Source of the DNA: an uncultured Porphyromonadaceae bacterium
Lineage (GTDB): Bacteria > Bacteroidota > Bacteroidia > Bacteroidales > Muribaculaceae
NCBI GenBank assembly: GCA_946187345.1
Contig: CAMHQD010000006.1
Span: 1 to 64,000, forward strand
DNA length: 64,000 nucleotides
Direction: 5' to 3'
In this document: positions 6,077 through 50,060 of the stretch, piece by piece
How positions within the stretch are numbered: position 1 is the first letter of the stretch
Layout: every line of letters begins with the position of its first letter
Notes under the pieces: model-generated
What the model was told of the DNA's origin: nothing
Seen by the model: the letters and a program-made list of their open reading frames with translations, nothing else
The model's database searches: none
Translations under genes and position numbers: made by a program

Positions 6077-6090
6077 AGTTTTTTTTGTTA

Positions 6091-6236
6091 AGGGGTTGAG
6101 GGCTTGAGGGGTTGAGCCTCGCGCTGGCGCGCTCGGGGATATTTGTAGGGCCTCGCCTTGGCGTGGCCGCTATATCGGCAATTCATTTATTCCCATTTGC
6201 GGCAGCAAATGGCTCAACCTCTCAACCCCTCAACCA
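6091..6236. repeat. GGTTGAG-family intergenic inverted-repeat element, copy 1
   Basis: Outer arms GGGTTGAG..CTCAACC; inner CCATTTGCggcaGCAAATGG and GAGCGCGccaGCGCGAGGC modules (read on the minus strand). Confidence 0.7.
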
Positions 6237-6245
6237 GTGAACGAA

Positions 6246-8051
6246 TTATTTGATTTTCTCGGGATTGAGTTCGGGCAAGAGCACTCCGGCGTCCTCCTCG
6301 GTGTTGCGCTTGAGCAGTTCCTCCACGCTGTCCACCACATTGACGATATAGTCGGCGAGTTTCTCGGCCTCGCAGATGATGTCCATATAGAGGATACCAG
6401 CCTCGTAGGGGTACTTCTTGTTGTTGATGTTCTCGACGTTGGCACTGCGGCAGTGGTTGCGGAACTCGTTGATTTCGCGCTCCTTCTCATAACTGCGGCG
6501 CAGGTCGTCGAAGTTGGCCCCGTCCACATCGACCAGAATACCCATCATGTTGGTCATCGCCTGGGATACATACTTGAGCATGAGGTCGATGTTCTTGTAG
6601 TTATACTCCACAAAGTGGGCGTCGCTCTGCATCTTGCGCACAAACGTCTTGGCGATATTGTTGCAACTGTCGGCAATCGACTCGAGTTCACTGACGATGT
6701 TGAGCAGCGTGGCGATACGCATCTTGGAGGCGTGACTCAGGCGGCCGTCCATCACCTGGTTGAGATAGTTGGCGATCTCAATCTCCATGCGGTCGCTGAT
6801 GTCCTCATATTTATAGATGCGCTCCAATAGTTCGTCAAATTCTTTGGTGCCTAACTTGGTGTGCACCAGTGTCTTGACCATACCGAACATGCGCTCCACC
6901 CTCTGGGCCATCACCACGGTCTCACGTTGTGCCTGCAGGATATTGAGTTCGGCGGCACCCACCAGGCCGGCGCTGATATACTTGAGTTGCGACTCGCTGT
7001 CCTCGGCCGGCTTGGTCTTGATAAAGTAGTCGACAATCTTCACCATCAGTCCGGTGAAGCCCAGCAGCAGCAACAGGTTGCACGTGTTGTACATGGTGTG
7101 GTAGACGGTTAGGCCCCACGATGTGGCTGCGCGCATCGATGCCAACTGTGCGTCGGTTGCCGCGTCGGCGCTGGCGTAGAGGGCCGTCGGGTCGCCAAAG
7201 CCAAGTGCATCGGTCACGTTGGCCGCCAACTTGACAAAGAGGAAGAACACCGGTACCATCCACACCGTGCCAATCAGGTTAAACAGCAAGTGGACGCCCG
7301 CCGCTTTCTTGGCGTTGGCGTTGCCGCCCAACGAGGCGAGCAGCGGCGTGACGGTAGTGCCCACGTTGCTGCCCAGCACGATGGCACACGCCATGTCAAA
7401 CGGTATCCAGCCCTTGGTGCTCATGATGAGCACAATGGCTATCGTGGCGGCACTCGACTGGATGACCATCGTCACAACCATACCCACAAGGAAGAAGAGG
7501 AGCACAGACAAGTAGCCCATCTCGGTGTAGTTCTTCAACGCGGCAAAGAGTTCCGGCGACTTGCTCAGGTCGGGCACATTGTCCTGAATGAATTCCAGAC
7601 CATAGAAAAGGAAGACAAAACCGATGATGAACTCGCTGATTGACTTCCACTTGCTTTTCTTGGTGAACATCAGCGGCACCGCGATGGCAAGCAGCGGCAG
7701 CAGGTATTTTGTCAGGCTCACAGAGAAGCCGAAGAATGTCACCACCCATGTGGTGAATGTCGAGCCCACATTGGCGCCCATAATCACGGCCACACTCTGC
7801 TGGAGTGTCATCAGGCCAGCGTTGACAAAACTCACCACCATCACCGTCGAGGCACTCGAACTCTGGATTAACGCGGTGATTGTCACACCGGTGAGCATAC
7901 CCACCCACTTGTTGCGTGTCATGGCCGACAGGATGTCGCGCAACTTGCCGCCGGCGGCCTTCTGCAAGCCCTCGCTCATCACCTTCATGCCATAAAGGAA
8001 CAGCCCCACGGCACCCAAAAGTGAGAGGAAGTTAAGGAACGAATAGTCCAT
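6246..8051 (-). CDS. Na/Pi cotransporter family protein with PhoU-like C-terminus
   Basis: GLFLYGMKVMSEGLQKAAG, repeated QSSSA motifs (TALIQSSSAST, MVIQSSAATIA), GANVGST and GSNVGTT. Confidence 0.92.
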   Translation of the reverse strand: MDYSFLNFLSLLGAVGLFLYGMKVMSEGLQKAAGGKLRDILSAMTRNKWVGMLTGVTITALIQSSSASTVMVVSFVNAGLMTLQQSVAVIMGANVGSTFTTWVVTFFGFSVSLTKYLLPLLAIAVPLMFTKKSKWKSISEFIIGFVFLFYGLEFIQDNVPDLSKSPELFAALKNYTEMGYLSVLLFFLVGMVVTMVIQSSAATIAIVLIMSTKGWIPFDMACAIVLGSNVGTTVTPLLASLGGNANAKKAAGVHLLFNLIGTVWMVPVFFLFVKLAANVTDALGFGDPTALYASADAATDAQLASMRAATSWGLTVYHTMYNTCNLLLLLGFTGLMVKIVDYFIKTKPAEDSESQLKYISAGLVGAAELNILQAQRETVVMAQRVERMFGMVKTLVHTKLGTKEFDELLERIYKYEDISDRMEIEIANYLNQVMDGRLSHASKMRIATLLNIVSELESIADSCNNIAKTFVRKMQSDAHFVEYNYKNIDLMLKYVSQAMTNMMGILVDVDGANFDDLRRSYEKEREINEFRNHCRSANVENINNKKYPYEAGILYMDIICEAEKLADYIVNVVDSVEELLKRNTEEDAGVLLPELNPEKIK

Positions 8052-8259
8052 CTAATTGATTGTTAATGTGTTAATCTTTTATTGAGTAGCAACGGCAGGC
8101 TAATGCCCACTTTTGATGTTACAAAGTTAACACAAACCAACGGAACTGCAAAACCTTTTTCTCGTATTTTCATATTTATCACGTTAGTGGATATTTTATG
8201 GAAATTCGAGTTCAGGAATTTGATTCGGCGATAAAATCGGGCGGTTTGTCTATTTTGGG

Positions 8260-8290
8260 TTGGACGGCACGCGGGAATTCGCTACCTTTG
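8260..8290 (+). promoter_or_regulatory. Bacteroidota-type promoter upstream of tolC-like gene
   Basis: TTGG-N19-TACCTTTG. Confidence 0.6.
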
Positions 8291-8320
8291 TGGTGACGAA
8301 AAATAATCACTTCCTTCATT

Positions 8321-9637
8321 ATGTCACAATTCAAGATTATGCTTGCCTTGGCGCTGGCGCTGGCTACGACCGGCGCCGGCGCCAAGTCGTGGACCCTGCA
8401 ACAGTGCATCGACCACGCCAAGCAGCAGAACATCTCTATCAAGCAGCAGCGGGTGAGCGTGGCTCAGGCCGAACTTGACGTGAGTGACGCCAAGGCGGCG
8501 CGCCTGCCGTCGGTCAACTTCTCCACCGGTCAGCGTTACAACAACCGTCCCTTCTCCAAGTATTCGGCAATGGTCAACGGCAGTGAGGTCATCACCGTCG
8601 ATAACCGCAACAGTTACACCGGCACCTACAACATCAGCGCATCGATGCCTCTCTATGACGGCGGGAAAATCAAGAACAACATCGAGTTGAAAAAACTCAA
8701 CACCCGCATCGCCGAGTTGAATGTCGATGCCGCCTCCCTCACCATCGAGGAGGAGATTACGCGCGTCTATATCCAAATCCTCTATAGTCAGGAGGCCGTC
8801 ACCCAAGACGGCGAGCAGATTGCCCTCAGTGAGGCTCAAGTGGAGCGCGCCCATGCCCTGCTTGACGCCGGCCTGCTCAACCGCGCCGACGTGGCGCAAC
8901 TCGAGTCGCAACTTGCCAACGACCGCTACCAACTTGTGGCCGACCAAACTACCCTCGCCGACTATGAACTGCAACTCAAGCAGTTGCTCGAACTGGACGG
9001 CGACACCACTATCACCGTCGCCGACCCCTCCGTCACCACCGATGCCCTCGCGCCGCTGCCAACCAAGGCCGATGTCTATGCCGCCGCCCTTAACTCGCGG
9101 CCGGAGGTGCAAGCCAAGTTGCTCGCCCTCGACCGCAGTTCCATCGATGAGAAAATCGCTCGCGCCGGGCGCCTGCCCTCCATCACCTTGAGCGCCAGCA
9201 GCGGCACCAGCACCACCACCGGCAACGGCAACTTCTTCACGCAACTCAAGAACCAGTGGAGCAACGGCATCGGCCTCACGCTGTCTATCCCCATCTATGA
9301 CCGCGGCGCGACGCGCAACGCAATCTCGCGTGCCCGCCTCGAGCGCGAGAGCGACGAGTTGGCCCTCCAGAACACCCGCAAGCAACTGTGGAAGAGCATC
9401 GAGACCTATCACCTCAACGCCACCGGCGCGCAGCAACGCTATGCCGCCGCAACAGAGCGCGAGCGGGCCGCGCGTGCCAGTTATGAACTCACCAGCGAGC
9501 AGTTCCGCCTGGGTATGAAAAATATCGTTGAACTGCAAACCGACAAAACCGCCCTCTCGGCTGCCGTACAGCAAACCATCCAGGCAAAGTACACCGCCGC
9601 CCTCAACAGCGCCCTGCTGCGCCTCTACGCCAGATAA
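8321..9637 (+). CDS. TolC family outer membrane efflux protein
   Basis: Signal peptide, SWTLQQCIDHAKQQNISIKQQRVSVAQAELDVSDAKAARLP, two-repeat TolC architecture. Confidence 0.92.
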   Translation: MSQFKIMLALALALATTGAGAKSWTLQQCIDHAKQQNISIKQQRVSVAQAELDVSDAKAARLPSVNFSTGQRYNNRPFSKYSAMVNGSEVITVDNRNSYTGTYNISASMPLYDGGKIKNNIELKKLNTRIAELNVDAASLTIEEEITRVYIQILYSQEAVTQDGEQIALSEAQVERAHALLDAGLLNRADVAQLESQLANDRYQLVADQTTLADYELQLKQLLELDGDTTITVADPSVTTDALAPLPTKADVYAAALNSRPEVQAKLLALDRSSIDEKIARAGRLPSITLSASSGTSTTTGNGNFFTQLKNQWSNGIGLTLSIPIYDRGATRNAISRARLERESDELALQNTRKQLWKSIETYHLNATGAQQRYAAATERERAARASYELTSEQFRLGMKNIVELQTDKTALSAAVQQTIQAKYTAALNSALLRLYAR

Positions 9638-9687
9638 AAAGAGAAACAAGGAACTCCGGGACTCCCGGGAAACCAGAAAACTATAAA

Positions 9688-10844
9688 ATGAAAAAATGGA
9701 TTTACATCGCGCTGGCGGTACTCGCCGCGCTCGCGCTATTCCTCTACTGCGGTCGCAACAAAGAAGAGAAACGCATCTCCTTCACAACCGAAAAGGTGGA
9801 AACCAAGACCATCTCCACCAGCGTCACCGCCACAGGCACCCTCGAGGCCGTGACGACCGTCACCGTCGGTACACAGGTGAGCGGCATCGTCAACAAACTC
9901 TATGTGGACTACAACAGCGTGGTCAAGAAGGGGCAAGTGATTGCCGAACTTGACCGCACCAACCTCGAGAGCGACCTCACCTCGCAGCAGGCCAACCTGC
10001 GCAGCGCTCAGAGCGAACTCGACTATCAGCAGAAGAACTACGCCCGATATGCCGAGTTGAACGAGAAGCAACTCGTTAGCCGTGCCGAGTACGACGTGGC
10101 CCTGCAGAGCCTGCGCAAGGCCCAAGAGCAGGTCAAGGTGGCTCAACAGAATGTGCAGAAGGCGCGCACCAACCTCGGCTACGCCACCATCTACTCACCA
10201 ATCGACGGTGTGGTCATCAGCAAGGAGGTGGAGGTGGGACAAACCGTCGCCTCGTCATTCAACACCCCGACGCTATTCACCATCGCCAAGGACCTGAGCG
10301 ACATGCGCGTGATTGCCAACGTCGATGAGGCCGACATCGGCAGCGTGCGGCCCGGCCAACGCGTCACCTTCCAGGTGGACGCATTCCCCGATGATGTGTT
10401 TAACGGCAACGTGACCCAAGTGCGGCAAAAGGCCACAACCACCAATAATGTCGTCACCTACGAGGTCGTTATCAGTGCTCCAAACGCCGACCTCAAACTT
10501 ATGCCGGGTCTCACGGCCAACGTCACCATCTTCACCCTTGAGATTAACGGACAGTTGGCGGTGAGCAACCGCGCGCTGCGCTTCACCCCCGAGCCGGAAA
10601 TCATCGGCAACGACTACACCGTGCGGGACTGCGAGGGTGAGCACAAACTCTGGACCCTTGACGGCAAAGCGTTCACCGCCCACAAGGTCGAGGTGGGCAC
10701 CACCGACGGCATTCACACCGTCATCACCGGCGGCATCAACTCCGGCGCCACCGTCGTGAGCGACGTCTCGTTCGGTGCCGGGCAGGACGACAAGCAGACC
10801 GGCGGCTCACCCTTCATGCCCGGCCCGCGCAACCGCAACAAAAA

Positions 10845-10848
<4 letters not shown>
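9688..10848 (+). CDS. Efflux periplasmic adaptor subunit (MacA/HlyD family)
   Basis: N-terminal TM; VSGIVNKLYVDYNSVVKKGQVIAELD and YSPIDGVVISKEVEVGQTV lipoyl/barrel motifs. Confidence 0.92.
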
Positions 10849-11585
<737 letters not shown>

Positions 11586-11643
11586 AAACTAACGCGTTTG
11601 GTGTGCGGTCACCTCGTGACCGCCCCATAGTGACAAACGACCA

Positions 11644-12867
11644 ATGAATATAACTAACTTGTTCAAAATAGCGCTGCGGGCCATCGCCGGCAATAAGACG
11701 CGTAGTTTCCTCACCATGCTGGGCATCATCATCGGTGTGGCGAGCGTCATCACCATGCTCGCCATCGGCCAAGGCTCAAAACTCCAAATCCAGCAGAATA
11801 TCGCCGAGATGGGGTCCAACATGATTATGATTCATCCGGGAGCCGACCGTGGCCCGGGCGGAGCGCGGGGCAGCGCCGACGACTCGCAGACGTTGACCCT
11901 CGATGACTACAACAGCCTGCTGACGGAGGCGAAATATCTCGCCGCCGTCAGCCCCAACGTCAGCAGCGGAGGGCAACTCATCGCCGGCAACAACAACTAC
12001 CAGACGAGCGTTACCGGCGTCAGCCGCGGCTACCTCACAATCCGCCAACTCACCGTCGAGCAGGGCGATATGTTCACCGAGGCCGACGTGAAGGCCGCAG
12101 CCAAGGTGTGTGTCATCGGCAAGACGATTGTCGACAACCTCTTCCCCGCCGGCCCCGACCCCGTGGGACAGGTAATCCGCTTCAACAAGATGCCGGTGAA
12201 GGTGGTGGGCGTGCTCAAGAGCAAAGGCTACAACTCGATGGGCATGGACCAGGACAATATCGTGTTGATGCCCTACAGCACCGTCATGAAGCGCGTGCTG
12301 GCCCAAAACTACCTGCAGGGCATCTATGCCAGCGCCGTGGTGGAGGGTATGACCGACCTGGCCATCAAGGACGTCAAGTCTATCCTCCGCCAGAACCACA
12401 AACTGCGCGAGGGCGACGATGACAATTTCACCATCCGCAGCCAGGAGGAACTCAGTTCAATGATGAGCAGCACAATGGGTATGCTCACCGCCCTGTTGGG
12501 GGCTGTGGCGGGCATCTCGCTCATCGTGGGAGGCATCGGCATCATGAACATCATGTACGTCAGCGTGACCGAGCGCACCCGCGAGATTGGTTTGCGCATG
12601 AGCGTCGGCGCCCGTGGCATTGACATCCTCAGCCAGTTCCTCATCGAGGCGATCATGATTAGCGTCACCGGCGGACTGATAGGTGTCGTGCTGGGTTTTT
12701 CACTCAGTATGCTCATCAAGGTGGGTGCCGGATGGCCGGTCACCGTCGAGTTGTGGACGGTTATCCTCTCCTTTGCCGTGTGTACCGTTACAGGCGTCTT
12801 CTTCGGCTGGTACCCGGCCAAGAAGGCCGCCAACCTCGACCCCATCGAGGCTATCCGCTACGAGTAA
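11644..12867 (+). CDS. ABC transporter permease (MacB/FtsX family)
   Basis: NKTRSFLTMLGIIIGVASVI N-terminus; SLIVGGIGIMNIMYVSVTERTREIGLRMSVGA. Confidence 0.94.
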   Translation: MNITNLFKIALRAIAGNKTRSFLTMLGIIIGVASVITMLAIGQGSKLQIQQNIAEMGSNMIMIHPGADRGPGGARGSADDSQTLTLDDYNSLLTEAKYLAAVSPNVSSGGQLIAGNNNYQTSVTGVSRGYLTIRQLTVEQGDMFTEADVKAAAKVCVIGKTIVDNLFPAGPDPVGQVIRFNKMPVKVVGVLKSKGYNSMGMDQDNIVLMPYSTVMKRVLAQNYLQGIYASAVVEGMTDLAIKDVKSILRQNHKLREGDDDNFTIRSQEELSSMMSSTMGMLTALLGAVAGISLIVGGIGIMNIMYVSVTERTREIGLRMSVGARGIDILSQFLIEAIMISVTGGLIGVVLGFSLSMLIKVGAGWPVTVELWTVILSFAVCTVTGVFFGWYPAKKAANLDPIEAIRYE

Positions 12868-12881
12868 TTACTGATTTATAA

Positions 12882-13937
12882 TTGCTTACAATGAAACGCG
12901 AGATTTTTATTCATATCATTTGTTGGGCGGTGGTGATCTTCTTCCCGCTGCTCTTCCTCGGCCAGAACGCGCTGCCTGGCGAGACAATGCCGCGCTTCGT
13001 GCGCTCGCTCGGCTCGCCAATCGCCTATATGGTAGTGTTCTACCTCAACTACGTCGTGCTCGTGCCACGGCTGCTCTTCGGCAACCGCCGATGGCTGTTC
13101 TATGTGGTGAACATCGCGGTGGTGGCACTCGCCGTCGCTTTCATGGCCGAGTGGTGGCAGTTGATGAACACCTTGTTGCCCGACACCGGTCATCACCACG
13201 GGCCGAGGCCGGGCATCAATCCGATGTACTTCTACAGCACCATCACGCTAATGCTCGTGGTGGGACTGAGTATCGCCATCCGCATGACACGCCGCTACCA
13301 CGATGCCGAGCAGGCGCGCATCGAGGCAGAGCGTGACCGCACCGAGGCCGAACTCACCAACCTGCGCAACCAACTCAACCCACACTTCCTGCTCAACACC
13401 CTCAACAACATCTACGCCCTCATCGCCTTTGACGCCGGCAAGGCTCAGACGGCCGTCGAGGACCTCAGCCGTCTGTTGCGCCACGTGCTTTACGACAACC
13501 GTCAGCCGTTGGTGCCGCTCAACAAGGAGGCCGCCTTCATGCGCGATTATGTGTCGCTGATGCGCATCCGCCTCACGGACGCCGTCACCGTCGAGGAGCA
13601 TATTGATGTTGACCAGCGAGACATGACACCCATCGCGCCGCTCATCTTCATCTCGCTCGTCGAGAACGCTTTCAAGCACGGCATCTCCAGCACCGGTCAG
13701 GGCCGCATCTCCATCTCGCTCAAGCGCGACGGCGCGCGCGTGGTCTGCACAATCGTCAACACCAACCACCCCAAGAACAAACAGGCCGACAAGAGCGGCA
13801 GCGGTATCGGCCTCGAGCAGGTGGCCCGCCGCCTCGAACTCATGTATGCCGGCCACTACACTTGGCAACGCGGGCCCTCACCCGATGCCTCCCTCTATTC
13901 CTCCACGATAGCAATAGATGTGGAATGTAGCGAATAA
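12882..13937 (+). CDS. LytS-like sensor histidine kinase (His_kinase domain)
   Basis: LRNQLNPHFLLNTLNNIYALI and LVENAFKHGI; multiple TM segments. Confidence 0.9.
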   Translation: MLTMKREIFIHIICWAVVIFFPLLFLGQNALPGETMPRFVRSLGSPIAYMVVFYLNYVVLVPRLLFGNRRWLFYVVNIAVVALAVAFMAEWWQLMNTLLPDTGHHHGPRPGINPMYFYSTITLMLVVGLSIAIRMTRRYHDAEQARIEAERDRTEAELTNLRNQLNPHFLLNTLNNIYALIAFDAGKAQTAVEDLSRLLRHVLYDNRQPLVPLNKEAAFMRDYVSLMRIRLTDAVTVEEHIDVDQRDMTPIAPLIFISLVENAFKHGISSTGQGRISISLKRDGARVVCTIVNTNHPKNKQADKSGSGIGLEQVARRLELMYAGHYTWQRGPSPDASLYSSTIAIDVECSE

Positions 13938-13955
13938 GTATTAAAAAAGAGTGGA

Positions 13956-14723
13956 GTGCAAAACGGCCGTGCCGTTTTGTGTATCTCCCGTTTTTCCCAT
14001 CAACCAATGGCAACAACAATCAAATGTGCGATAGTCGACGACGAGCCACTCGCCGTCGAGTTGCTGGCCAGTTATGTGGCCCGCATTCCTTTCCTTGAAC
14101 TCACCGGCAAGTACAGCAACGCCACAGGCGCCCTGCGCGGCATCAGTGAGCATCCTGTCGACCTCCTTTTCCTCGACATCCAGATGCCCGAGGTTAACGG
14201 CATGGAACTCAGCCAAATGCTCCCCGAGAGCACACGTGTCGTCTTCACCACTGCTTTCGACCAGTATGCCGTTGACGGCTTCCGTGTGGGAGCCATCGAC
14301 TATTTGCTCAAACCCATCAGTTACGCCAACTTCCTCGAGGCCTGCAACCGCGCCTTGCAATGGTTCACCATGCTCGAGGCGCAGCGTCAGGCCCAGCAGG
14401 CCCCGCCGCCCGCCTCAATCTTCGTCAAAAGCGAGTATAAGCAGGTGCAAATCATGCTCGATTCCATCCTCTACATCGAGGGTCTGAAAGACTATGTGAA
14501 AATCTATACAGACGACAGACCTCGCCCCGTGCTCACCCTGATGAGCATGAAGGCCCTGGAGGAGCAACTCCCCTCATCACAGTTCATGCGCGTCCACCGC
14601 AGTTACATCGTCTCGCTGCCAAAAATTCGCGAGGTAGAGCGTGGCCGCATCGTCTTTGGCGACACCCTCATCCCCGTGGGCGACAGTTACAAAGCCGCCT
14701 TCCAGGAATACATGAACCGGTAG
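13956..14723 (+). CDS. LytTR-family response regulator
   Basis: CAIVDDEPLAVELL, LFLDIQMPEVNGMEL, C-terminal LytTR (YIEGLKDYVKIYTDD...FMRVHRSYIVSL); start probably 13956 or 14007. Confidence 0.92.
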   Translation: MQNGRAVLCISRFSHQPMATTIKCAIVDDEPLAVELLASYVARIPFLELTGKYSNATGALRGISEHPVDLLFLDIQMPEVNGMELSQMLPESTRVVFTTAFDQYAVDGFRVGAIDYLLKPISYANFLEACNRALQWFTMLEAQRQAQQAPPPASIFVKSEYKQVQIMLDSILYIEGLKDYVKIYTDDRPRPVLTLMSMKALEEQLPSSQFMRVHRSYIVSLPKIREVERGRIVFGDTLIPVGDSYKAAFQEYMNR

Positions 14724-27460: not shown

Positions 27461-27617
27461 GAGGTTGAGGGTTGAGAGGTTGAGGGTTGAGAGGTTGAGC
27501 CATTTGCTAAGGCAAAAGGGAATAAATGTAGGGCCTGGCCACCCTGATGGCAAATCCATTATTACCGAGCGCGATAGCGCGAGGCTCAACCCCTCAACCT
27601 CTCAACCCTCAACCTCT
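27461..27617. repeat. GGTTGAG-family intergenic inverted-repeat element, copy 2
   Basis: Tandem GAGGTTGAGGGTTGA arms with complementary CTCAACCTCTCAACC; internal GAGCGCGATAGCGCGAGGC hairpin. Confidence 0.75.
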
Positions 27618-36398: not shown

Positions 36399-36530
36399 TT
36401 TAGGGGGTGAGAGGCTGAGCGTTTAGCGGTTGAGCCATTTGCTAACGCAAATGGGAAGAAATGTATTATTACCGAGCGCGTTAGCGCGAGGCTAAACCTC
36501 TCAACGCTCAACCTCTCAACCTCTCAATCC
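36399..36530. repeat. GGTTGAG-family intergenic inverted-repeat element, copy 3
   Basis: GGTTGAGCCATTTGCtaacGCAAATGGG...GAGCGCGttaGCGCGAGGCTAAACCTCTCAAC. Confidence 0.72.
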
Positions 36531-40016: not shown

Positions 40017-41372
40017 ATGAAAACAAAACCTGACCTAAGTTTCATGAAACTGTGGAACATCAGTTTCGGCTTCTTCGGGGTGCAGATTGCCTACGCGTTG
40101 CAGAGCGCCAACATCTCGCGCATCTTCGCCACGCTCGGTGCCGACCCGCACTCGCTCAGTTATTTCTGGATTTTGCCGCCACTCATGGGTATGGTGGTCC
40201 AGCCGTTGGTGGGCTTTTTCAGCGATAAGACATGGACGCGCTTCGGACGCCGTATTCCCTACCTCTTTGTGGGTGCCGCCGCCGCAGTGCTCGTGATGTG
40301 CCTATTGCCAAACGCCGGCTCGCTGGGCTTGAGTACCAGTGAGGTGTTGTGGGGCTTCTCCGGTGCGATGCTCTTCGGATTGGTCTCGCTAATGTTCCTC
40401 GACACCAGCATCAACATGGCCATGCAACCTTTCAAGATGATGGTGGGTGATATGGTCAACGAGAAACAGAAAGCCGAGGCTTACTCAATCCAGTCCTTCC
40501 TGTGCAACGCCGGCTCGCTGGCAGGTTACCTCTTCCCCATCCTCTTTGCCGCCATCGGCATCGCCAACACTGCCGACCCGGGCATCGTGCCCGACTCGGT
40601 GAAGTGGTCGTTCTATGTCGGCGCGGCGATCCTCATCCTCTGTGTGATTTACACCACGGCCAATGTCAAGGAGTATGACCCGAAGGAGATGGCCGCCTTC
40701 CAGGAGGCCGCCAACCAGAGCAACGCCACAGCGGCAGCCACCGGTGGCGAGAGCAGCGGCAAGCACGCCCTCAAAGTATTCTTCCAGGTGGGTCTCGTCC
40801 AGTTCTTCTGCTGGTTCGCCTTCATGTATATGTGGACCTACACCAACGGCACCATCGCCGGCACTGCATTTGGTGTCGACATGGCCGACCCGAACCACGC
40901 CGCTACACAGGGCTATCAGGATGCCGGCGACTGGGTGGGCGTCCTCTTTGCAATTCAGGCAATCGGCAGTGTTCTCTGGGCTGTCGTGTTGCCGCGTTTC
41001 AAGAATATCAAGGTGGCCTATGCTCTGAGCCTGGTCATCGGCGGCATCGGCTTCCTTATGGTGCCCTATTGCGCCAACAAGTACCTCCTCTTTGTGCCCT
41101 ACTTCCTCATCGGCTTCGCTTGGGCCGCCATGCTCGCCATGCCGTTCACCCTGGTGACCAACGCTCTGGAGGGCAACCCCCGCATGGGCACCTATCTGGG
41201 ACTGTTCAACTGCACCATCTGCATCCCGCAGATTGTGGCCGCCGCACTCGGTGGAGTGCTGCTCGGCGCGCTCGGTAGCGTCCAGGGCAACATGCTTATG
41301 CTCGCCGGTGCGCTGCTCGTGGTCGGCGCTGTGTGCGTCTTTATCATCCAGGACCGCAAGGCTGCCGCGTGA
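40017..41372 (+). CDS. MFS sugar transporter (GPH/SLC45-like)
   Basis: NISFGFFGVQIAYALQSANISRIFATLG, FSDKTWTRFGRRIPYLFVG, 12 TM. Confidence 0.9.
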   Translation: MKTKPDLSFMKLWNISFGFFGVQIAYALQSANISRIFATLGADPHSLSYFWILPPLMGMVVQPLVGFFSDKTWTRFGRRIPYLFVGAAAAVLVMCLLPNAGSLGLSTSEVLWGFSGAMLFGLVSLMFLDTSINMAMQPFKMMVGDMVNEKQKAEAYSIQSFLCNAGSLAGYLFPILFAAIGIANTADPGIVPDSVKWSFYVGAAILILCVIYTTANVKEYDPKEMAAFQEAANQSNATAAATGGESSGKHALKVFFQVGLVQFFCWFAFMYMWTYTNGTIAGTAFGVDMADPNHAATQGYQDAGDWVGVLFAIQAIGSVLWAVVLPRFKNIKVAYALSLVIGGIGFLMVPYCANKYLLFVPYFLIGFAWAAMLAMPFTLVTNALEGNPRMGTYLGLFNCTICIPQIVAAALGGVLLGALGSVQGNMLMLAGALLVVGAVCVFIIQDRKAAA

Positions 41373-41466: not shown

Positions 41467-42063
41467 TCAAAATGTCACTCCCAACGACACGCTCACGCGT
41501 TTGCCCTTGGTGCGCCACACTTCGGAACTGCCCACGTCAAAAGAGTATAGCGGCATAACCCAAAGGTGTTTTGTGTCGACGCGGAAGCCGGCCCGAATGC
41601 GGTTCTCGCTTTGTCGGAACTCCGGCACGGTGGTGTATTGTGCCGTAACGCTGAATATTTTATAGACGCGGCAAGCGGCGCCGGCGCTCCAGCACGTCTT
41701 ATATTTCAGGCCGGAGTCGTAGTGAGGGTTGATTGTGGCGCCAAGTTGCACGCGGCCGATATGGTAGATCACACTCGCTTGCAGCCCAAAGTCGTAGTAG
41801 GCCGTGTTATAGGTCGTGCCAAAGTAGGGTTTGCAGCGGATGGTGAAATGCTTGATGTCGGTTTGGTAGGTGAATGCCAGACGCAGGTGCTGAAGTTTGA
41901 ATGCCTCGTCATATAAACTATGCTCCAACTCTACATTATAGGCGTTGGCAAAAGTGTAGTTAATGTTCACAAACCGCGTGTCACGCAAGCCAAGCCCGAA
42001 TTGGGCGGATGCGGCACTCGCGGTGAGCGTGGCGGCGAGCAATGTGGTGAAAAAATGCTTCAT
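41467..42063 (-). CDS. Small outer membrane beta-barrel protein
   Basis: Signal peptide, alternating beta-strands, C-terminal VSLGVTF. Confidence 0.6.
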   Translation of the reverse strand: MKHFFTTLLAATLTASAASAQFGLGLRDTRFVNINYTFANAYNVELEHSLYDEAFKLQHLRLAFTYQTDIKHFTIRCKPYFGTTYNTAYYDFGLQASVIYHIGRVQLGATINPHYDSGLKYKTCWSAGAACRVYKIFSVTAQYTTVPEFRQSENRIRAGFRVDTKHLWVMPLYSFDVGSSEVWRTKGKRVSVSLGVTF

Positions 42064-42650
42064 AAGTATCTTTGCAGTTTGGTTGAGATGACTTCATATC
42101 CGGCGGTGGTCAGGTGCAGTCCGTCGTAGTAGTAGGCGGCATTGGGCGTACCGTCGCGCAGCAACAGGTCAAATGCGTCAACATACGTCACATCAGGTTT
42201 GCTGTCACAAATGTTTTTAATCTTTTCATTGAAACTCTTTATCCGCGAGTTACTAATTAGCGGCTCAGCCCTGCTCCATTCATCGTCACGTGGCAAAATC
42301 GACAATAGATAGGTCTGCTTGGCTCCAAGTCCGATAACGGCTGCCAGATACCGTTCGATATAGGCTTGCTCGTCTTCAAGTTTGATAAGCCCCAAGTCGT
42401 TGGTGCCGCTGAGCACGACGGCAATTTGTCCGCGATAGGCATCGTGGTGTGCTTCGAGGAGCGCGACACCGCTGCTGCCAACAGCGTCGTTGCTTGTGAT
42501 GCGGTCTGGGAAATAATACTTCACGTCCCACCCCGTGACGAGCGAGTCGCCGATGAAACAAAGCCTGTCGTTGAGGTCGTTGTCCTTTGTGCAGCAAGTA
42601 GTTATAAGCATTATGCCAGCCAATATGAATACTTTGTGAAACAATCCCAT
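42060..42650 (-). CDS. SGNH/GDSL hydrolase lipoprotein
   Basis: LITTCCTKDND lipobox; LCFIGDSLVTGWD; LSGTNDLGLI; YYDGLHLTTAGYEVIS. Confidence 0.88.
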   Translation of the reverse strand: MGLFHKVFILAGIMLITTCCTKDNDLNDRLCFIGDSLVTGWDVKYYFPDRITSNDAVGSSGVALLEAHHDAYRGQIAVVLSGTNDLGLIKLEDEQAYIERYLAAVIGLGAKQTYLLSILPRDDEWSRAEPLISNSRIKSFNEKIKNICDSKPDVTYVDAFDLLLRDGTPNAAYYYDGLHLTTAGYEVISTKLQRYL

Positions 42651-42825
42651 TGTTGTTGCAATTAAAATACAAAAGTAGTGATTTGATGTGATAGGTCTTT
42701 GTTTTGTTTTGTTAATAGTTGTTAATTGCATCCGAAAATGGATTGGCTCGATGATTTGTTAAGAGAAAATGAGTTAATTTTGTATTTTATTCTTAGTTTT
42801 TTTCCGTTTGTTTTGTTTTAACACG

Positions 42826-44241
42826 ATGATTTATAACTCTTTTAATTTCATTGTTGTTTTTCCTTTACTTTTCCTCCTGTATTACGCGATTCCGGCCACT
42901 TATGAAAGAGCAAGGAACGCTTTCCTGCTGTTGGTGAGTTACTTGTTATACCTCCAGTGGGAGCCGGTTTATGCTCTGGTCCTGCTCGGGGTGACGATTG
43001 TCACCTTTGCAACAGCAATCTTTATCGAGTATGCCACAAGACGCAAGTTATACCTGACCTTGGGGGTGATTGTCTCATTGTCGCCACTGATCTTTTTTAA
43101 ATATTCCAATTTCATCAATGATAACATTAACGCTCTCTTTTCAACTCTGGGTCTGAATTTTCATCTGCCGGGATTGAATTGGGCGATACCCGTTGGTATT
43201 TCATTTTTCACTTTTCAAGCCTTAGGTTATCTGTGGGATGTATATTATAAAAGACAACAAGTTGAACGTGATTTTTTGACTTACGCTCTCTTTGTCTCTT
43301 TCTTCCCAAGCATCATTTCCGGACCAATCAACAAGGCCTCGTTACTAATTCCGCAACTGAAAAACATCAGGCCATATTTCGACTACACTAAGGCTGTGGC
43401 GGGTTTGAAAGCCATTCTGTGGGGAATGTTTATGAAGGTGGTCGTGGCCGACCGTGTCGCGATTTATGTCGATACGGTTTTGCCGAACTATGAAAACTAC
43501 ACCGGCATCACTTGCTTTGTGGCTAGCCTGATGTACACAATCCAGATATATGCCGACTTCGCCGGATATTCTTTGATGGCAATCGGTGTGGGACGGGTGC
43601 TTGGCATTGAGTTGACCCAAAACTTCCGTAGGCCTTATTTTGCCGTTAGTGTCACAGACTTTTGGCGAAGGTGGCACATCTCGCTATCTACTTGGCTCAA
43701 AGACTATATCTACATCCCATTGGGAGGCAGCCGGTGCTCTAAGGCACGCAATTATGTCAATATCTTCATCACTTTCCTCGTTAGCGGCATTTGGCACGGG
43801 GCTAACTGGACTTTTGTCGTTTGGGGGGCGTTGCATGGTGTTAGTCAGATTATTGAGAAAGCCCTCGGTCAACAAGCGTGCCATTATCGGTGGTTTGGTA
43901 AGTCGGTTAAAATCATCATCACTTTCCTTATTGTCAACTTTGCGTGGATTTTCTTCAGAATGCCGTCGTTGAATGACGCATGTGGGGTGGTAGCCAGAAT
44001 TTTTGACCTCTCCATACCATTTAGTGTGTTTTCACCCGGTGGTACGGCAACTCTTTATATGGTTTTAGGCATCATTATGCTGGCGGTAAAGGAAATAGTC
44101 GAGGAATTTGGTGGTGGCGCGCGAATGCCATTCAACAATCGTCGCGCGGCCGTCCGTTGGGGTTCCTATGCCTTTGTGATGGTTATGATTCTATTGTGTG
44201 GCGTGTTCAGTTCCGACCAGTTTATCTATGCAAATTTCTAA
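42826..44241 (+). CDS. MBOAT family O-acyltransferase (AlgI-like)
   Basis: VPVGISFFTFQALGYLWDVYY-type core (IPVGISFFTFQ), WRRWHISLSTWLKDYIYIPLGGSR, GIWHGANWTFVVWGALHG. Confidence 0.93.
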   Translation: MIYNSFNFIVVFPLLFLLYYAIPATYERARNAFLLLVSYLLYLQWEPVYALVLLGVTIVTFATAIFIEYATRRKLYLTLGVIVSLSPLIFFKYSNFINDNINALFSTLGLNFHLPGLNWAIPVGISFFTFQALGYLWDVYYKRQQVERDFLTYALFVSFFPSIISGPINKASLLIPQLKNIRPYFDYTKAVAGLKAILWGMFMKVVVADRVAIYVDTVLPNYENYTGITCFVASLMYTIQIYADFAGYSLMAIGVGRVLGIELTQNFRRPYFAVSVTDFWRRWHISLSTWLKDYIYIPLGGSRCSKARNYVNIFITFLVSGIWHGANWTFVVWGALHGVSQIIEKALGQQACHYRWFGKSVKIIITFLIVNFAWIFFRMPSLNDACGVVARIFDLSIPFSVFSPGGTATLYMVLGIIMLAVKEIVEEFGGGARMPFNNRRAAVRWGSYAFVMVMILLCGVFSSDQFIYANF

Positions 44242-44243
44242 GC

Positions 44244-45155
44244 ATGAAAAGGTTCATTCTTAAAATATCGTTATTCCTGCTTTGTGTACTCGCGATTGAC
44301 CGTGGCATCGGAGCCGTTTTGGCTTATATGGCTCAGCATGCCAAAGGTGGATATTTGGGGCACCAGAACTATATCGTTAACAACTCGACGGACGACATTT
44401 TGGTTTTCGGCTCTTCGCGGGCAATACATCACTATAACACGCCGATGATGAGAGACTCGCTAGGGGTGAGTTGTTATAATTGCGGGCAGGATGGTGAGGG
44501 CGTGATTCTGTTTTATGGCTGGTGGCAGTTTATCAAAAAGCGGCACCACCCCAAGTTGTTAATCTATGAGATTAACCCAGAGTATGATATCGAGGTGGAC
44601 GATAATACCAAGCATCTGGGCTGGCTCAAGGGACTCTATGACAATAATGAAATTAGGAATGAGTTCAACAGCGTAGACCCCTTAGAGAAATATAAAATGA
44701 TGAGTATGCTATATCGCTACAACTCCAGGTTCCACCAAATCATAATTGACTTTCTGCACCCGGTACATGCCATAAACCTAGGTTTCTTGCCCGTTGACCA
44801 GGAATTGGACCCGTTGAGAGTGCGCGGCGACAATGTCAATGTACCATCTGGAATCAATAAAATTCGTGTCGATTCGCTTAAGATGAGTTATCTTGACCAA
44901 ATAATTCAAGATGTGGGTAGTGAGCATTTTGTTCTTGTCTATTCGCCAACGTGGTACGGTAAGCATTATCCCGCGTTGGAGATTGTAAAACAATTCGCCG
45001 CTGCGCGGAATGTGCCTTTTATCGATTTCTCGACTAGCGACAAGTATTCCCATCATAATGAGTTTTTCTACGACGGCTATCACATGAACGCTCGTGGCGC
45101 TGATGAGTTCACTCGTGATTTGATGCGCGAGATTTGTTCGCGCGGACTGTTGTGA
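44244..45155 (+). CDS. Membrane-anchored SGNH/AlgJ-DltD-like protein, paralog of 30244-31155
   Basis: ILVFGSSRAIHHYNTPMMRDSLGVSCYNCGQDGEG aligned with VVLGSSRARHHYDPSLLASLPGCETCYNSGCDGHG; FYDGYHMNARGADEFTRDLM. Confidence 0.75.
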   Translation: MKRFILKISLFLLCVLAIDRGIGAVLAYMAQHAKGGYLGHQNYIVNNSTDDILVFGSSRAIHHYNTPMMRDSLGVSCYNCGQDGEGVILFYGWWQFIKKRHHPKLLIYEINPEYDIEVDDNTKHLGWLKGLYDNNEIRNEFNSVDPLEKYKMMSMLYRYNSRFHQIIIDFLHPVHAINLGFLPVDQELDPLRVRGDNVNVPSGINKIRVDSLKMSYLDQIIQDVGSEHFVLVYSPTWYGKHYPALEIVKQFAAARNVPFIDFSTSDKYSHHNEFFYDGYHMNARGADEFTRDLMREICSRGLL

Positions 45156-45176
45156 CGGAGCGAGGCGGGCTGTTTC

Positions 45177-45566
45177 GGCGATAAAAAGCCGGTTTGTCTA
45201 TTTTGAGTTGGACGGCACGCGGGAAATCGCTACCTTTGTGGTGATGAAATTCATCATCACTTCCTTCATTATGTCACAATTCAAGATTTTGTTGGCCTTG
45301 GCGCTGGCACTGGCGGCGGCCGGCGCCCAGTCGTGGACCCTGCAACAGTGCATCGACCACGCCAAGCTGCAGAACATCTCCATCAAGCAGCAGCGGGTGA
45401 GCGTGGCTCAGGCCGAACTTGACGTGAGTGACGCCAAGGCGGCGCTTTGCTGAAGAATTGCTTTGATGGCAGCAACCATATGATGATTGTTTTTGGCGGT
45501 TTCGCGCTGTTTGTCGGCGCGGTGTTTGTCTTTATCATCCAGGACCGCAAGGCGGCTGCCGCTTAA
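45177..45566 (+). pseudogene. Chimeric relic: promoter + 5' end of tolC-like gene fused to 3' end of an MFS transporter gene
   Basis: 45177-45444 nearly matches 8229-8500; 45450-45566 reads LKNCFDGSNHMMIVFGGFALFVGAVFVFIIQDRKAAAA*, matching the MFS C-terminus ...LLVVGAVCVFIIQDRKAAA. Confidence 0.85.
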
Positions 45567-45591
45567 GGATGCGCCTAAACCACAACTCTTT

Positions 45592-45635
45592 AACAAATTC
45601 CACGGATAACGATAACATTATTCGTGGGATTTGTT
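45592..45635. terminator. Hairpin after chimeric relic
   Basis: AACAAATTCCACGGATAA...TTATTCGTGGGATTTGTT. Confidence 0.6.
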
Positions 45636-45737
45636 TTGATGGATAGTAACCGGGATTATTATTTGGCGGTTTCAAATATTTTGCTTATCTTTGTAAAAAT
45701 TTGATGTTTTACTCACTATTTAATCTACTACACAATT

Positions 45738-46283
45738 ATGGCAAAGAAATGGATTTGTACCGTGTGCGGTTATGTGCACGAGGGAGACACACCACCCGAG
45801 AAGTGTCCGCTATGCAAGCAGCCGGCCGAGAAGTTCAAGCTGGTTGAGGATGATAAGCAGAGTTATGCCAGCGAGCATGAACTGGGCATTGGCCAGGGGG
45901 TTGACCCCGAGATTGTTGAGCACCTGCGTGCCCACTTCATCGGCGAATGCAGTGAGGTGGGACAGTATCTGGCCATGTCTCGCCAGGCCCACCGCGAGGG
46001 CTATCCCGAGATTGGCGAGGCATTCCGCCGCTACGCTCTCGAGGAGGCCGAGCACGCCGCCCGCTACGCCGAGATGCTCGGCGAGGTCGTGTGGGACACC
46101 AAGACCAACCTTGAGAAGCGCGCCGCCGCCGAGCATGGAGCGTGCGAGGAGAAGACACGCATCGCCAAGTTGGCTAAGGCACATGGCTTGGACGCCATCC
46201 ATGACAACCTGCATGAGATCGCGCGTGACGAGGCACGCCATGGCCGCGGCTTCCAGGGTATGCTCGACCGCTATTTCAAGTAG
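45738..46283 (+). CDS. Reverse rubrerythrin (N-terminal rubredoxin + ferritin-like domain)
   Basis: MAKKWICTVCGYVHEGDTPPEKCPLCKQPAEKF followed by ferritin-like EExxH helices. Confidence 0.9.
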   Translation: MAKKWICTVCGYVHEGDTPPEKCPLCKQPAEKFKLVEDDKQSYASEHELGIGQGVDPEIVEHLRAHFIGECSEVGQYLAMSRQAHREGYPEIGEAFRRYALEEAEHAARYAEMLGEVVWDTKTNLEKRAAAEHGACEEKTRIAKLAKAHGLDAIHDNLHEIARDEARHGRGFQGMLDRYFK

Positions 46284-46323: not shown

Positions 46324-46398
46324 AATTTCCCCAAATCTCACAAATCCCGCGAATTGCTAATATATAATTCGTGGGATTTGTGAGATTTGGGGGGAATT
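46324..46398. repeat. Long inverted repeat between rubrerythrin and lysS, overlapping lysS promoter
   Basis: TTCCCCAAATCTCACAAATCCCGCGAATT / AATTCGTGGGATTTGTGAGATTTGGGGGGAA. Confidence 0.8.
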
Positions 46399-48232: not shown

Positions 48233-48267
48233 AAGGCCGGAGTCCCCTCAATCCGCAACTCTCCAAC

Positions 48268-48490
48268 CTCTCGTCTATTTACGTCAATTTACGTCTATTT
48301 TTATCTTTATATCTCCCGTGAATTAACGTGAATTCCCGTGAATACTTTTATATTACAAAATTGAGATTATTCACTGATTCTCATCATCAAAATATTTCAC
48401 GAAAGTTCACGGAAATTCACGGGATGCAATATTTTACGATAAGGATTTTACGGATTTTTCGTGAGAATAATAGACGAAAATAGACGAGAG
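48268..48490. repeat. About 220-bp AT-rich inverted-repeat element
   Basis: Ends CTCTCGTCTA / TAGACGAGAG; inner arms TCCCGTGAATTAACGTGAATTCCCGTGAAT / TTCACGAAAGTTCACGGAAATTCACGGGA. Confidence 0.65.
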
Positions 48491-48550
48491 AAATTTTAAT
48501 TTTGGACAGGCAAACAACGAGTGACGGATTTTACGTGAGATAGTTATTAG

Positions 48551-49991: not shown

Positions 49992-50042
49992 GGGACGGTT
50001 CTTCTGCTTCACGACTTGTCGCTGAAACAGAAGAACCGTCCC
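49992..50042. repeat. REP/BIME-like palindrome GGGACGGTTCTTCTG...CAGAAGAACCGTCCC
   Basis: Perfect 15-bp arms around a 21-nt loop; resembles RAYT-associated REP palindromes. Confidence 0.7.
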
Positions 50043-50060
50043 CACCATTCGTGTTTAAGT

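Follow-up and report, generated by a model that had tools for sequence, protein, structure and literature searches.

A tolC-MFS chimera next to an O-acyltransferase cassette in an uncultured Muribaculaceae bacterium: a probable scar of efflux operon rearrangement

Truncated gene remnants at bacterial rearrangement breakpoints are the described structures with which the locus analysed here is best compared, and it shares with them a partial gene copy that retains its promoter, an abrupt switch inside the coding sequence and neighbours that are exchanged relative to a sister species. Two other known systems are represented at this locus by fragments. The first is the tripartite MacB-type efflux operon (tolC-hlyD-ABC-macB), of which the 5' end of the outer-membrane gene is present, the complete operon being located at 8221-12867 of the window (the whole 64,000-nucleotide stretch of DNA that was analysed). 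The second is the GPH/SLC45-like family of MFS sugar transporters, of which the segment 45446-45566 encodes the last ~38 residues.

The chimera and its two parents

The relevant features of the window are as follows.

6210-8153, minus strand: Na/Pi symporter gene with its upstream region (NCBIfam Na_Pi_symport; 92.7% identity to contig C70 of the sister genome G069)
8221-14719, plus strand: intact tolC-hlyD-ABC-macB operon and two further genes at their present site (Pfam OEP, HlyD, ABC_tran, MacB_PCD/FtsX; 93-97% nucleotide identity to G069 contig C53)
40017-41372, plus strand: intact MFS gene, by sequence comparison homologous to the tail below and not its recent source over the whole length
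45157-45170, plus strand: upstream flank GGAGCGAGGCGGGC, directly after the stop codon of the DltD-like gene; in the G069 alignments common to the G069 tolC locus and not to window 8207-8220
45171-45445, plus strand: tolC promoter, 5' UTR and first ~58 codons, a relic copy of 8221-8501 (94.5% identity; with the flank, 92% to G069:C53:19679-19973)
45208-45238, plus strand: promoter-like TTGG-N19-TACCTTTG
45271-45453, plus strand: stub ORF of 60 aa, comprising the signal peptide and the beginning of mature TolC
45438-45445, plus strand: switch point GGCGGCGC, where the tolC sequence and the conserved Gly-Gly codons of an MFS motif overlap
45446-45566, plus strand: 3' end of a putative lost MFS (GPH/SLC45-like) paralog, ending in VFIIQDRKAAAA and a stop, recognized by matches in the genome and in proteins of relatives
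45592-45635, plus strand: 18-bp hairpin 3' of the MFS tail, a possible terminator
45661-46277, plus strand: rubrerythrin promoter and gene (87.7% to G069:C70:30976-31592)

The chimera is confirmed in the assembled sequence. Within the window, 45171-45445 (hereafter the stub) aligns on the same strand with 8221-8501, with 257 of the 272 aligned bases identical, 15 substitutions and several indels (12 gap positions). A comparison of the region 45170-45600 with the whole genome (2.79 Mb, 131 contigs) gave, besides the self-match, only two others: one to the 5' end of tolC (E 1.5e-107) and one to the terminal part of the intact MFS gene (41322-41368), with 89% identity over the final 47 nt of the match (E 9e-11). 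Both of the homologies proposed in the initial annotation are thus recovered by alignment. The copy of 8229-8500 that it placed at 45177-45444 is real and in fact starts at 45171, and the signal peptide and about 40 codons that it described are more exactly ~58 tolC codons, signal peptide included.

Beyond the switch at GGCGGCGC, the reading frame is GGALLKNCFDGSNHMMIVFGGFALFVGAVFVFIIQDRKAAAA followed by a stop. This MFS tail is, as initially annotated, homologous to and diverged from the C-terminus of the MFS gene ending at 41372, with 55% amino acid identity over the whole tail. Its protein matches in relatives (best E about 3e-5) fall mostly at the C-terminal end of complete MFS proteins with lengths of about 440-470 aa. 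A full-length parent was found neither in the same genome nor among 101 genomes of the genus or 397 of the family, and nothing in these three sets is closer to the tail than the resident MFS gene. Judging from these comparisons, the parent appears to be a different, now lost paralog of the resident gene.

The motif GG[A/V]LL is conserved in the MFS family, and its GGNGGN codons overlap GGCGGCGC of tolC, so that the MFS homology starts at the Gly-Gly codons, at the very point where tolC ends. The sequence common to tolC and MFS at the switch amounts to about 8 nt with no extended homology, the MFS parent itself not having been found; at the equivalent motif, GGCGGC occurs in 11 of 102 distinct MFS homolog sequences and GGCGGCG in 5. 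Homologous recombination between tolC and MFS is accordingly unlikely. The right-hand junction, as read from one draft assembly, is likely to be a product of microhomology-mediated (illegitimate) joining or deletion. Of the non-allelic recombination junction that had been proposed, the tolC 5'/MFS 3' scar is supported, and homologous exchange is not supported.

The efflux operon in the sister species

The only near-identical stretch among the 101 genomes of the genus is located in the sister genome (G069:C53:19679-19973, 92% over 45157-45445), and the chimera itself was found in none of the other genomes of this set. The alignment with G069 extends to 45157, 14 bases further upstream than the alignment of the stub with the 8221 copy. 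The stretch in G069 is the start of a complete tolC-hlyD-ABC-macB operon, the products of which are 96.6, 97.9, 97.6 and 98.8% identical, respectively, to those encoded in the window. Upstream of this operon are the same MFS gene (97.8% aa) and then a homologous cassette for an outer-membrane protein, SGNH-type and DltD-like proteins and an MBOAT acyltransferase; at the corresponding place in the window, there is the stub alone. Of the two possibilities that had been raised for relatives, a tolC operon at this site is thus realized in G069, and an intact second MFS gene was not found in the own, genus and family genomes listed above. The stub and the G069 operon occupy the same place and are preceded by the same flank, which is most simply explained if the common ancestor already had the operon here and the stub is its remainder. 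Contrary to the direction implied by the initial annotation, sequence comparison indicates that the stub more probably descends from the operon in its former position than from a copy of the sequence at 8221.

The second breakpoint of the pair is located between 8153 and 8221. In G069:C70, the Na/Pi symporter segment (6210-8153) is followed by about 26 unaligned bases and then by the rubrerythrin segment (45661-46277). The neighbour pairs are accordingly cassette-tolC and symporter-rubrerythrin in G069, against symporter-tolC and cassette-stub-MFS tail-rubrerythrin in the window, so that both breakpoints pair up. The two genomes are rearranged at many further breakpoints; for example, the sequence downstream of the operon in G069 is found on contig C19 of the window genome, beside the sequence that lies downstream of rubrerythrin in G069. 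Among more distant members of the genus, neither arrangement was found near the tolC operons of four genomes (G081, G014, G013 and G095) or near the rubrerythrin loci of 19 genomes; the available upstream sequence is short in several of these cases.

Several other features of this neighborhood were observed. The cassette of the window (41467-45155; outer-membrane protein, SGNH-type, MBOAT and DltD-like) is 21-52% identical to that of G069 at the amino acid level, in comparison with 97-98% for the flanking genes, the MBOAT/DltD portion has the opposite orientation in G069, and the GC content of the window's version (45-50%) is lower than that of the window; this version looks like an exchanged surface-modification cassette. 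A dispersed, largely palindromic element of ~150 bp is present at 27464-27615, 6087-6235 and 36410-36526, with some 40 copies each in the same genome and in G069; in G069, a copy separates hlyD from the ABC gene, possibly flanked by a 10-bp target duplication, and the window has none at this position. Finally, an element of 200-300 bp at ~48240-48540 is repeated in many copies in G069, several of them at contig ends, and a palindromic repeat of about 54 bp (49992-50046) has a dozen or more near-identical copies in that genome.

Reading frame, promoter and hairpin of the stub

The stub retains the promoter described in the initial annotation, with TTGG at 45208-45211, a 19-nt spacer and TACCTTTG at 45231-45238, similar to the -33/-7 consensus of the primary sigma factor of Bacteroides (sigma-ABfr; PMC7366714). 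The 60-aa ORF reported to survive at 45271-45453 is also present by translation; its last two codons (Leu-Cys) come from beyond the switch and are out of frame in the MFS part. Compared with G069, this ORF has changed in length once, by a deletion of 6 bases that keeps the frame. No Pfam family was detected for 45271-45450, and neither the OEP domain (PF02321), two of which make up a functional TolC/OEP family member, nor any of the channel-forming parts is present; in the intact tolC gene at 8321, OEP is recognized in two stretches (Pfam E 5.7e-56). Likewise, no Pfam family was detected for the 40-aa MFS tail, in which the C-terminus alone remains of the 12-helix domain of a functional MFS transporter.

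The hairpin at 45592-45635 (MFE -22.3 kcal/mol, z -6.3; unique in the genome) may end any transcript that starts at the stub, and TTGG-N19-TATCTTTG at 45663-45693 is the rubrerythrin gene's own promoter element. A 27-bp inverted repeat, 96% complementary, is located between rubrerythrin and lysS (46329-46392) and has a 15-bp core in common with the hairpin.

Proposed history, alternatives and comparison with known systems

What is read directly from the assembled sequences is the pair of sequence matches, the point of the switch, the operon that G069 retains intact at this site and the reciprocal exchange of neighbours. We consider it probable (roughly 0.7) that the locus is a rearrangement scar, with an operon that stood at the cassette site in the ancestor, was relocated in the window lineage and left a 275-base remnant joined to an MFS 3' end. 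We infer the following order of events, including end-joining at microhomology. In the common ancestor with G069, the tolC-hlyD-ABC-macB operon would have been directly downstream of the MFS gene and the O-acyltransferase cassette. In the window lineage, the operon would then have come to stand next to the Na/Pi symporter, at the present 8221-14719, and at the original site it would have been reduced to 275 bases. These would have been joined, over the few shared bases of GGCGGCGC, to the 3' terminus, upstream of rubrerythrin, of a different MFS paralog that has since been lost. Insertion of 8221-45445 as one block between symporter and rubrerythrin, the block consisting of one unit and a further 275 bases and being bounded by direct repeats, fits the four junctions as well, whether it came about via a circle or via a tandem duplication followed by loss; it was considered and set aside, being indistinguishable from stepwise events because of the many further breakpoints in both genomes. 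A literature search on tandem duplication with differential loss in bacteria yielded nothing useful.

The divergence among the stub, the 8221 copy and G069 is uneven. Between the stub and the 8221 copy, the difference is 10.1% across promoter, 5' UTR and signal peptide, against 1.7% for the mature part (Fisher p 0.006); the stub's distance from G069 is even (4.4 and 5.2%, respectively). The promoter and signal-peptide part of the 8221 copy differs from G069 by 10.8%, and in the mature part both the stub and the 8221 copy are 5-6% away from G069. This pattern would count against a simple duplication after the species split, and to that extent against the preferred history, unless the 8221 promoter region changed fast or gene conversion occurred. 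It may reflect either fast change in the promoter and signal peptide of the relocated operon, or gene conversion of the mature part, or the existence of two copies before the split. The first 100 coding bases of the window tolC, with 14 differences from G069 (mostly 0-6 in the other 100-base bins, 13 in one), fit fast change without proving it; an attempt to root the comparison with other members of the genus failed, the promoter and signal peptide being too diverged. Under the third option, one tolC copy beside the symporter and another beside the cassette would have predated the split, with G069 losing the former and the window lineage most of the latter. The 8221 promoter and signal-peptide part is indeed about equally far from the stub and G069, as if it had diverged first, but the near identity of the mature parts of the stub and the 8221 copy would require later gene conversion, and no trace of tolC is present in G069 between symporter and rubrerythrin, so we regard this scenario as unlikely.

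We give still less credence to an artefact, in which the right-hand junction would be an assembly chimera and the true genome would differ after 45445. The assembly is a draft of 131 contigs and the tolC-MFS tail junction occurs in no second genome, but the left junction is seen independently in G069. Short-read assemblers normally need shared words longer than the about 8 nt of overlap at the switch, and a collapsed repeat would not show so many substitutions and indels relative to the one other 5' end of tolC in the assembly. A horizontal origin, with the stub forming the right flank of DNA that a related donor contributed together with the cassette, seems similarly improbable: the divergent cassette (21-52% aa), with its inverted MBOAT/DltD part and GC of 45-50%, between flanks of 98% (MFS) and 97% (TolC) identity would suit such an event, but in its mature part the stub hardly differs from the resident tolC, and its upstream flank is common to G069. 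A functional role is the most doubtful of all. The intact promoter and reading frame, the latter with the in-frame deletion as its only length change, could point to a small exported peptide or to a promoter donated to rubrerythrin, but a strong hairpin and a separate promoter precede that gene, the stub is absent from every other genome of the genus set, and the ORF is too short for a selection test. It is just as hard to credit that the stub gives rise to a short N-terminal TolC peptide that is exported, or to a 5' RNA that competes; if it did, this product would influence the expression of the intact tolC operon. A rearrangement scar without a dedicated function remains the best explanation of the stub, no function being indicated, and the 60-aa ORF would be a dead by-product, perhaps still transcribed.

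The locus thus records one pair of breakpoints through which the position of an efflux operon came to differ between two sister species, with G069 as the genome in which the older arrangement can be read. Its relevance is mainly to gene-order turnover in uncultured Bacteroidales, and no new system is indicated. Nothing fundamental separates it from other truncated remnants at rearrangement breakpoints, although here two unrelated gene ends are fused and the promoter and frame are intact. In contrast to the MacB-type efflux operon, the stub lacks the OEP domain and the channel-forming parts, and of a GPH/SLC45-like transporter there is the tail only, its closest full-length relative being 55% identical over that tail.
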